Positions 9,057 to 48,188 of a stretch of DNA of 64,000 bases are shown here, one piece after another; position 1 is the first letter of the stretch; each line of letters begins with the position of its first letter. The stretch covers positions 461,286-525,285 of the forward strand of contig QQUJ01000018.1 of assembly GCA_008501635.1 (NCBI GenBank), written 5' to 3'. The stretch comes from Pseudomonadota bacterium. Its GTDB lineage: Bacteria > Pseudomonadota > Gammaproteobacteria > QQUJ01. The notes beneath the pieces were generated by a model. That model was not told the origin of the DNA and did no database searches. It saw nothing but the letters and a program-made list of their open reading frames with translations. The translations under genes and the position numbers were made by a program.

Positions 9057-9074
9057 CCAGGGATCGATCCCTGG
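9057..9074. promoter_or_regulatory. Perfect 18-bp palindrome before the kinase operon
   Basis: CCAGGGATCGATCCCTGG is a perfect inverted repeat 9 bases upstream of the kinase ATG, directly abutting its Shine-Dalgarno site. Such a position suits a repressor operator or an RNA hairpin controlling initiation. It does not resemble the GlpR site found on the other side of this divergent region. Confidence 0.45.
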
Positions 9075-9328
9075 GAGCTTAACGCACAAACACGGAGATT
9101 GATCGGATCCGAATGGCGCGGCGGGGAGGAACAAGGATTTATTCGACCGGGCGGACAGATTCAAGAGGCGGCGCGGAGGAAATCCGCCGACAGTGCTGCA
9201 CCGGTGGCGGGGTACGCTGCCCGAACGGATGAGATGCGGATCGGGAAGCCGGATTTTTCGGCCTTCAAGCGCTCCTCGTGTCTTTCTCTTTGACAATCAC
9301 GGCGTTCAATGGCAGGTTTTACGGACTT

Positions 9329-12850: not shown

Positions 12851-12962
12851 GGCGGGCCGTGCCGGTCCCCCCGCAACAATCAGCTGTGAACCCCGTCAGG
12901 CCCGGAAGGGAGCAGCGGCAGCAGTGAATTTGTGTGCCGGGGTGTGGCTGGTGCGGGCCGCC
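12851..12962 (+). ncRNA. ffs: Signal recognition particle 4.5S RNA
   Basis: The hallmark SRP domain IV is unmistakable: GTCAGGCCCGGAAGGGAGCA, holding the GGAA tetraloop and the asymmetric internal loop bound by Ffh. The flanking arms pair over the whole length, from GGCGG at 12851 to CCGCC at 12962, which gives about 112 nt against 114 in E. coli. TGTGCCGGGGTGTGGCTGG on the 3' side is also conserved. It acts with Ffh (encoded at 51.9 kb) in co-translational membrane targeting. It lies upstream of dnaX in the same direction. The ends are inferred from pairing. Confidence 0.93.
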
Positions 12963-45315: not shown

Positions 45316-46395
45316 ATGACGCGTGCCGCTGAAGCGCTGATCGATCTTGCTGCATTGGCTCACAATTTGGCGCGGGCCCGCCAGGCGGCGCCCGGTAGTC
45401 GAACGATGGCCGTCGTCAAGGCCAACGGCTATGGTCATGGTGTCGAACGTGTTGCCGGCGCACTGCGTACGGCTGATGCTTTCGCTGTGGCCTGCCTGGA
45501 CGAGGCCCTACCGCTGCGCGAAGCTGGATTTGCTCATCCGATCAATGTGTTGGAAGGTTTTTACAACACCGAGGAGCTGGTCCAGTTCGGCCGGCATCAT
45601 ATCGACGCCACGGTGCATCAGCCGGAGCAGATTGAGATGCTTGGGCGCGCACGTCTGGATCACCCCCTGCGCGTATGGCTCAAGATCGACAGCGGGATGC
45701 ACCGATTGGGGGTCGCCCCCGAGACTGCGGCGGAGTGCTGGGCGCGTTTACGAGCCTGCCGTTCGGTGGGTGCGATTGGTCTGATGACTCACCTGGCTAA
45801 CGCTGACGATCGCAGCGACCCCATGACCGAGCACCAACTGAAGGTCTTCGCCGGTGCGGTCGGACGACTGCAGGGTGAGCGCAGTATTGTCAATTCCGCA
45901 GGCATCCTGGCTTGGCCGGCGGCAGTCAGCGATTGGATACGCCCCGGCATCATGCTCTATGGCGCCTCGCCCTTCGCGGTCACCAGCGCCACCGATGAAG
46001 GGCTGCGCTCGGTCATGACTCTGCGAACTCGGCTGATTGCGATCCGCGACGTCAACTCGGGTGATTCGGTAGGCTACGGCGCCTCCTGGCGCGCCGCCCG
46101 CAAAAGCCGGATCGGCGTCGCGGCTATAGGCTATGGTGACGGGTATCCGCGTCACGCGCCGAGTGGAACGCCGGTGCTGGTCGATGGAAAGCGGGCGGTA
46201 CTCGCGGGACGTGTATCGATGGATATGATCACGCTGGATTTGACGGCTGTGCCCAACGCGCGCATCGGTGATCCCGTGGTGCTCTGGGGAGAAGGATTAC
46301 CGGTGGAAGAGATTGCTCTGGCCGCCGAGACCATCCCTTATGAGCTCTTCTGTCAAATCACGCCGCGGGTGCATTTTCGTGAGCTAGGGTCTTAA
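45316..46395 (+). CDS. alr: Alanine racemase
   Basis: This 359-residue PLP enzyme makes D-alanine for peptidoglycan. The PLP lysine lies in MAVVKANGYGHG (about residue 36); the second-base tyrosine is in SVGYGASWRA (about residue 255). WLKIDSGMHRLGV, NSAGILAWP, RPGIMLYGASP and GRVSMDMITLDLT are also conserved. It follows dnaB by 49 bases, as in E. coli. Immediately downstream lies a GacA-type box and the first GGA-rich RNA. Confidence 0.96.
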   Translation: MTRAAEALIDLAALAHNLARARQAAPGSRTMAVVKANGYGHGVERVAGALRTADAFAVACLDEALPLREAGFAHPINVLEGFYNTEELVQFGRHHIDATVHQPEQIEMLGRARLDHPLRVWLKIDSGMHRLGVAPETAAECWARLRACRSVGAIGLMTHLANADDRSDPMTEHQLKVFAGAVGRLQGERSIVNSAGILAWPAAVSDWIRPGIMLYGASPFAVTSATDEGLRSVMTLRTRLIAIRDVNSGDSVGYGASWRAARKSRIGVAAIGYGDGYPRHAPSGTPVLVDGKRAVLAGRVSMDMITLDLTAVPNARIGDPVVLWGEGLPVEEIALAAETIPYELFCQITPRVHFRELGS

Positions 46396-46419: not shown

Positions 46420-46437
46420 TGTAGGAAATATCCGACA
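46420..46437 (+). promoter_or_regulatory. GacA/UvrY-like upstream box of the 46.5-kb RNA
   Basis: TGTAGGAAATATCCGACA agrees with the GacA/UvrY box (TGTAAG-N6-CTTACA) at 9 of its 12 specified positions and is itself an almost perfect inverted repeat (TGTAGG/CCGACA). A further TGTAAG follows at 46442-46447. A -10-like TATAGC lies at 46474-46479, so the box is centred about 57 bp upstream of the predicted start, the spacing used by GacA at rsm promoters. Confidence 0.5.
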
Positions 46438-46485
46438 CTCTTGTAAGAAAATGCCGAGATTCATGTGCGTCGATATAGCAGGGAT

Positions 46486-46733
46486 GCACCATCCCTTGGT
46501 GTTATCCGATTGATTGATAAGGGATTAATAAAATTTGTTCAGTGCCCCCTGCAACGTATCGACGCCTTGCTCGGCATTCGAAGCGGTTGTCATTTCCTCT
46601 GGCGTGGGCAAACTAGTCACATCGGAACGAGGGAGCTGTTCCAAACGGAGACACGGAGATCATAGGATTTGATCGGGCACTGGATGCCTGTGTAAGGAAA
46701 AGCAAAGGCGGCAGGATGCCGCCTTTGTCGTTT
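46486..46733 (+). ncRNA. Candidate CsrA/RsmA-titrating small RNA (CsrB/RsmZ class)
   Basis: The gap between alr and radA holds no protein gene. Its 3' part packs eight GGA motifs into about 95 bases (46622-46716), where 60 % GC DNA would give one or two. Several sit in hairpin loops: GGAAC-gagggagct-GTTCC, ATCA-taggatt-TGAT and CAC-tggatgcct-GTG. The last GGA is in the loop of the terminator (AAAGGCGGCA / TGCCGCCTTT, 46704-46726, followed by GTCGTTT). CsrA binds A(N)GGA in loops, and CsrB/RsmY/RsmZ RNAs titrate it this way. The start near 46486 is inferred from the -10-like TATAGC. The 5' part (46486-46620) is GGA-poor, so a later start is possible. Confidence 0.6.
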
Positions 46734-46820: not shown

Positions 46821-48188
46821 TTGGCTAAGAACCGTCCGGTCTATGCCTGCGCCGCCTGTGGTGCTCAGAGTCCGAAATGGGTCGGGCAATGCCCTGATTG
46901 CGAAGCCTGGAATACGTTGGTGGAGGAGGCGCCTGTTACAGCACTGGGGCGCGGCATCGCCGCCCGTGCGGGTGGGTATGCCGGGCATCAGTCGGAAGTG
47001 GTGTCGCTGGCCGAGATCGCGCCCGCCAACGAGGGGCAACGGATAAGCACCGGCCTCGTGGAGCTGGATCGTGTACTGGGGGGAGGATTGGTATCCGGGT
47101 CTGTCGTGCTATTGGGTGGCGACCCGGGGATCGGAAAGTCGACGCTGCTCGTGCAGGCGCTCGCGGTGTTGTCGAAGCGCGAGGCGACGTTATACGTGAC
47201 CGGCGAGGAGTCTCCGCAACAGGTGAGTCTGAGGGCACGGCGTCTTGAGTTGCCTACTCAGGGTTTCCGGTTGTTGGCGGCGACGCAGGTGGAGACGATT
47301 ATTGCAAGCGCGCTCGAGCACCGTCCGCGGATCATGGTCATCGATTCCATTCAAACCGTCTATACGGATCAGCTGCAGTCCGCTCCCGGGTCGGTGGGTC
47401 AGCTCCGCGAATCCACGGCACAGTTGATCCGCTTTGCGAAACAAAGCGGGACCGCTCTGTTTCTGGTCGGGCATGTCACCAAAGAGGGACAGCTGGCCGG
47501 GCCGAGAGTGCTGGAACACATGGTCGACACGGTGCTCTATTTTGAAGGCGATCCCGGAAATCGCTTCCGGGTGATTCGCGCCATCAAAAACCGTTTTGGG
47601 GCGGTCAACGAACTCGGCGTGTTTGCCATGACCGATAGGGGATTGCGCGAAGTGAACAACCCCTCCGCGATCTTTTTGTCACGGCATGAGGAGCCAGTCG
47701 CCGGGAGCGTCATCATGGTAACGAGGGAAGGTACCCGTCCGCTGCTGGTGGAGGTGCAAGCCCTGGTCGAGGAGAGCCGTATCGGCAATCCAAGACGCGT
47801 GACCCTTGGCTTGGAGCAGAATCGCCTCAGTATGCTGTTGGCGGTGCTGCATCGGCACGGGGGCGTGGTTACCTACGATCAGGATGTCTACGTCAACGTT
47901 GTGGGTGGTATACGCGTCTCGGAAACGGGTGCGGATCTGCCGGTACTGATGGCCGTACTCTCCAGTCTGCGTAACCGGCCTTTGCCTCAGGAGCTGGTGG
48001 TTTTTGGCGAGGTGGGGTTGGCCGGTGAGATACGTCCGGTTCAAAATGGCCCGGAGCGATTGATCGCCGCGGTGAAACACGGCTTCCGACGCGCAATTGT
48101 TCCGGCAGCCAACCAGCCCAAGGGTGGAGTCGAGGGGATGGAAATCGTGCCCGTACGTCGTTTGGCCGATGCGTTGGAAGCGCTGTAA
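46821..48188 (+). CDS. radA: DNA repair protein RadA
   Basis: This 455-residue RecA-like branch-migration ATPase helps resolve recombination intermediates. It shows the N-terminal zinc finger CAACGAQSPKWVGQCPDC, Walker A GGDPGIGKSTLLVQ (about 98-111), the RadA-specific KNRFG motif (IKNRFGAVNELGVF) and a C-terminal Lon-like domain (VYVNVVGGIRVSETGADLPVLMAVLSSL). I start at TTG 46821, with TTGGAG 6 bases upstream. The ATG options further upstream would add a long atypical leader that overlaps the terminator of the small RNA. Confidence 0.94.
   Translation: MAKNRPVYACAACGAQSPKWVGQCPDCEAWNTLVEEAPVTALGRGIAARAGGYAGHQSEVVSLAEIAPANEGQRISTGLVELDRVLGGGLVSGSVVLLGGDPGIGKSTLLVQALAVLSKREATLYVTGEESPQQVSLRARRLELPTQGFRLLAATQVETIIASALEHRPRIMVIDSIQTVYTDQLQSAPGSVGQLRESTAQLIRFAKQSGTALFLVGHVTKEGQLAGPRVLEHMVDTVLYFEGDPGNRFRVIRAIKNRFGAVNELGVFAMTDRGLREVNNPSAIFLSRHEEPVAGSVIMVTREGTRPLLVEVQALVEESRIGNPRRVTLGLEQNRLSMLLAVLHRHGGVVTYDQDVYVNVVGGIRVSETGADLPVLMAVLSSLRNRPLPQELVVFGEVGLAGEIRPVQNGPERLIAAVKHGFRRAIVPAANQPKGGVEGMEIVPVRRLADALEAL

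Follow-up and report, generated by a model that had tools for sequence, protein, structure and literature searches.

The small RNAs RsmX, RsmY, and RsmZ are about 110–130 nt long. In Pseudomonas, Rsm genes carry an upstream box, TGTAAG-N6-CTTACA, and the GacA sites of P. aeruginosa lie at about −75 in rsmY and at −196 in rsmZ (PMC4950607). RsmW of the same species has 7 GGA motifs, some of them in outer loops; it is derived from a 3′ UTR and has a weak GacA site ~830 bp away (PMC4950607). In Shewanella, CsrB1 and CsrB2 are RNAs of ~420 nt (PMC3171408).

We analyzed a 64-kb stretch of a gammaproteobacterial genome (the window), in which a 425-bp gap separates alr from radA. The gap probably encodes a GacA-controlled, CsrA-sequestering sRNA of the same functional kind as RsmX/Y/Z. 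The flanking genes and the upstream elements, in window positions, are as follows.

45316–46395, + strand: alr (alanine racemase), the upstream gene (PF01168 and PF00842)
46420–46437, + strand: GacA/UvrY-type box TGTAGGAAATATCCGACA, an exact match to TGTARGN6CYKACA, with an AAATAT spacer
46442–46459, + strand: possible further box in degenerate form (TGTAAGAAAATGCCGAGA), two helical turns (22 bp) 3′ of the first, a one-mismatch match (C18:507727)
46587–46614, + strand: possible weak promoter for a short transcript (TTGTCA, 16 bp, CAAACT; 8/12), read from the sequence and below the promoter-scan threshold
46821–48188, + strand: radA/sms, the downstream gene, with a TTG start at 46821 (TIGR00416, 625 bits versus a cut-off of 403)

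The gap has no coding family match, and the 66-aa open reading frame that it contains (46465–46665) matches nothing in Pfam or NCBIfam. The RNA that we propose, and the elements within it, are these.

46621–46733, + strand: proposed sRNA of ~113 nt, placed by predicted accessibility; 5′ end uncertain by several nt, with longer starts to 46484 possible
46624–46642, + strand: hairpin 1, GGAAC-GAGGGAGCT-GTTCC, with the GGA at 46632 in its loop (sequence, hairpin search, and fold)
46647–46657, + strand: linker GGAGACACGGA with two GGA (46647 and 46655), mostly unpaired in the short fold
46658–46674, + strand: hairpin 2, GATCA-TAGGATT-TGATC, with AGGA in its loop (hairpin search and fold)
46675–46689, + strand: hairpin 3, GGGCA-CTGGA-TGCCT, with GGA in its loop (sequence; unpaired probability >0.84 in the short fold)
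46702–46728, + strand: terminator-like hairpin whose loop region reads CAGGATG, with its GGA unpaired; + strand U-tract weak (sequence, terminator scan, hairpin search, and fold)

A preliminary description of this DNA had counted eight GGA motifs in about 95 bases, several in clear hairpin loops and one displayed by the terminator loop, and each of these observations holds. The eight + strand motifs (46624, 46632, 46647, 46655, 46665, 46682, 46696, and 46714) span 93 nt (46624–46716), and four of them lie in hairpin loops, including those of the GGAAC…GTTCC hairpin and the terminator-like hairpin. When 46621–46733 is folded as an RNA of ~113 nt, six to seven of the eight are predicted to be single-stranded. 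Multiple GGA (ANGGA/AGGA) in single-stranded loops, which characterize the Csr/Rsm class, are thus predicted for the short transcript but not for long ones.

The same description put the start of the RNA near 46495, some 57 bp beyond the box. Of that claim the box stands, at 46420–46437, and the start is not supported: in the corresponding fold, CAGTGCCC (46540–46547) pairs with GGGCACTG, as in the long transcripts that include it, and a start near 46495 is doubtful because most GGA are buried. For starts at 46483–46541 just two or three GGA are open, and for starts at about 46612–46620 six to seven are. These folds favor a start near 46620 over one at 46495; the box would then stand at about −190, much as in rsmZ. 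Both candidate starts have precedents, since GacA sites lie at −75 in rsmY and at −196 in rsmZ (PMC4950607). The promoter scan recognized no sigma-70 promoter. The stem of the terminator-like hairpin, the candidate here for the Rho-independent terminator that belongs to the Csr/Rsm class, is strong, and its + strand tail reads TCGTTTCC, or TTTGTCGTTT with the outer A–T pairs open; the terminator scan scored the hairpin on the − strand only. Because the promoter match is weak and the + strand U-tract poor, both ends of the transcript are placed provisionally.

The likeliest alternative, which we nevertheless consider unlikely, is that the locus produces a long GacA-activated RNA (~195–250 nt), or an alr 3′ UTR, closed by the CAGTGCCC/GGGCACTG pairing, with most GGA paired and CsrA binding weak, and acting by base pairing or as a sponge only after cleavage. 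The long-range pairing is 8 bp and perfect, folds from starts 46483, 46537, and 46541 have z values of −1.8 to −3.1, the distance to the box, about −65 to −75, would match that of rsmY, and RsmW provides a precedent for origin from a 3′ UTR (PMC4950607). But such an RNA would leave both the clustering of GGA and their display in loops unexplained, and conserved pairing with an mRNA, for which there were no relatives to compare, gives no sign of itself. The short transcript folds with a z of about −2.7 to −2.9.

Somewhat less probable is that a GC-rich intergenic filler has by chance acquired a run of GGA and a dyad. GGA-dense stretches do occur elsewhere in the window, and the number of GGA is not decisive by itself, because similar counts (at least 8 per 110 nt, moderately rare) are found near 9061 and 57856. 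Accessibility distinguishes the locus more sharply. We folded every 113-nt stretch of the window, on both strands, that starts just before a GGA and contains at least six GGA (n = 66), counting a GGA as accessible when its mean unpaired probability exceeds 0.7. The stretch at 46620, in which seven GGA are accessible, ranks first of the 66; no unrelated stretch has more than four. Among 500 shuffles that preserved GGA tokens, three reached the native count of accessible GGA, and none reached the native mean accessibility or folding energy. As an observation in its own right, positions 9061–9190 (+ strand) hold 9 GGA in 110 nt, have no GacA-type box, and show at most three accessible GGA in folds.

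The box reads TGTAGG-AAATAT-CCGACA, lies 25 bp past the alr stop, and supplies the upstream GacA/UvrY site typical of the class. The pattern TGTARGN6CYKACA occurs exactly at four places (six strand matches) in the 3.93-Mb genome, and about four are expected from base counts, so that the pattern alone is not significant genome-wide, a point in favor of chance. The AAATAT spacer, however, is identical in three of the four places, on C18 (alr–radA), at C13:85287, and at C30:22739; the fourth has a different spacer and lies within apparent coding sequence. It is in this shared spacer, and not in the pattern, that the significance of the box rests. The second box is suggestive at most, because one-mismatch matches occur at chance level genome-wide. 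Two of the three boxes that share the spacer adjoin GGA-hairpin genes, which also argues against chance. The second such gene is the following.

C13, about 85086–85231 (L092:1300–1445, minus strand of L092): second GGA-hairpin RNA gene, in the typA–dtd gap, from the box search and its hairpins

The C13 box has fully palindromic half-sites, and the RNA gene occupies its typA-facing side; its neighbors are dtd (TIGR00256) and a frame resembling the last part of TypA. The hairpins are AGACA-GGA-TGTCT, GGTGT-AGGATTACA-ACACT, and GGAT-GGAG-ATCC, followed by a strong terminator, CCCCGGCC-ATCGC-GGCCGGGG-TTTTTT, in which a GC-rich stem precedes the TTTTTT. The fold z is about −4, and the predicted folds have few accessible GGA, being less open than that of the alr–radA RNA, which counts against the sponge reading. 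The Rfam search assigned the C13 RNA to no family. In a sample made up of the window and ~94 kb of own-genome loci (~316 kb of strand), at least three non-overlapping GGA hairpins per 115 nt occur at about six places, and the C13 RNA, which was located through its box, is one of them. That the same box adjoins two GGA-hairpin genes is the strongest single argument for a sponge RNA.

The least probable alternative makes the GGA hairpins a cis-acting leader or attenuator of radA, with CsrA binding deciding read-through at the weak terminator. In its favor, radA follows after ~90 bp on the same strand and the + strand terminator is imperfect. Against it, 100–200 nt separate the GGA cluster from the start of radA, whose ribosome binding site lies outside the cluster; an extended −10-like TGCTAGTAT (read from the sequence) stands between the terminator-like hairpin and radA; and the box is found upstream of radA in 0 of 29 other genomes of the class.

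A CsrA-sequestering RNA would have its partners in this genome. CsrA is encoded by a single copy, above the CsrA equivalog cut-offs, next to an aspartokinase-like frame. A UvrY/SirA/GacA equivalog at C29:7163–7789 scores above the curated cut-off, and its gene lies two genes away from uvrC. Between gacA/uvrY and uvrC we also note a gene for a family-4-like uracil-DNA glycosylase (L083:738–2139, minus strand), which scores below the NCBIfam cut-offs. At C29:51418–55017, next to pdxJ- and acpS-like frames, is a BarA/GacS-like hybrid kinase, in which both the sensor and the catalytic/receiver parts match, with a score below the curated cut-off. The set of CsrA, GacA/UvrY, and GacS/BarA that accompanies the class is therefore encoded, the BarA-like kinase being a sub-cut-off match over most of the model. 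The identity given in the earlier proposal, a CsrA-titrating RNA under a GacA-type box, is thus supported by the display of GGA, the CsrA, GacA, and BarA-like set, and the box shared with C13; the start given there is not supported.

From this arrangement we infer transcription, binding of both proteins, and a physiological effect, as follows. Phosphorylated GacA (UvrY) would bind TGTAGGAAATATCCGACA, perhaps together with the second half-site, 22 bp further along, and binding at the box would switch on the sRNA promoter. The transcript, most likely of ~113 nt and ending at the hairpin at 46702–46728, would have six to seven GGA sites on display, located in its loops and linkers, and each pair of sites could capture a CsrA dimer. 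Such pairwise capture would lower free CsrA and so relieve CsrA control of its mRNA targets. The alr–radA sRNA may act in this way alongside its sibling on C13.

By sequence, the candidate falls outside the Rfam families. At the gathering threshold the window contains no CsrB, CsrC, or Rsm match; in a lax scan the CsrC model matches the terminator alone, with 8.5 of 61 bits. The covariance-model scan suggested by the preliminary description gave no support, as the best places for RF00166 (PrrB_RsmZ) in the genome are sub-threshold (14 of 44 bits) and lie outside the alr–radA gap. We rejected the lax matches as family members, considering them sub-threshold chance matches. The window does contain a bacterial small SRP RNA (12860–12956; RF00169, 75 bits). 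Judged by its letters, the locus has most of the functional features of the Csr/Rsm class that sequence can reveal, and fails the Rfam sequence families.

Relatives were compared at the level of the class, and at that level no conserved alr–radA sRNA was found. A DNA search of 273 other genomes of the class returned no homologous sequence, only short matches of 22–34 bases; one of these, in L123, was rejected as a homologue because it resembles coding sequence. The comparison covered 80 GTDB loci and 29 other genomes of the class, and in many of these the two genes overlap or lie directly against each other. Two larger alr–radA gaps, read fully, hold no GGA RNA: the L028 gap (549 bp, 16 GGA), which resembled a counterpart at first, reads as coding sequence, and the L077 gap (263 bp) contains a palindromic GTAGGAGCGGCTTTAGCCGCG repeat and not an Rsm-like RNA. 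Viral contigs yielded no relative of Alr. The insertion looks lineage-specific because the relatives compared, at class level, offer no match, comparable gap, or box.

Compared with the described systems, the alr–radA RNA resembles RsmX/Y/Z in its similar length, its several loop GGA, the presence of at least one sibling copy, and an upstream box with an N6 spacer, at about −190 for the short transcript. It differs from them in that the Rfam RsmZ model detects no resemblance, its genomic neighbors are others, and its box is degenerate (TGTAGG/CCGACA). With CsrB/CsrC of Enterobacteria and CsrB1/B2 of Shewanella it shares a UvrY-type box and the CAGGATG of its terminator loop, a motif that we take to be CsrB-repeat-like, but it is much shorter and has just 8 GGA. 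Like RsmW, it is a GGA-bearing RNA directly downstream of a protein gene; unlike the alr–radA RNA, RsmW has only a distant, weak GacA site and originates from a 3′ UTR. The type of regulator is therefore known, and its lineage and genomic place are probably new. The GacA–Rsm architecture would extend to a gammaproteobacterium that was compared with relatives at class level, and in which sequence models fail, the RNA having been found solely through the logic of box and GGA loops.

The third box that carries the AAATAT spacer leads to a different kind of gene.

C30:22739 (L094:1501–1518, minus strand of L094): canonical-half-site box TGTAAGAAATATCTTACA, an exact box match
L094:1–1305, minus strand: XrtA/PEP-CTERM glycosyltransferase gene, downstream of the C30 box (TIGR03013)

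The leader of the glycosyltransferase gene contains the hairpin CTGTA-GGAT-TGCAG, and direct control of this exopolysaccharide gene by GacA and CsrA is possible. More tentatively, the C18 and C13 RNAs could form a lineage-specific Rsm pair, the C18 member inserted in a tight housekeeping cluster, while the same box directly drives the XrtA/PEP-CTERM gene with its AGGA-hairpin leader, giving a coherent GacA loop of activation and lifted CsrA repression; we regard this larger scheme as possible but doubtful. The box with the AAATAT spacer offers a convenient means of listing the genes under direct GacA control in this genome.
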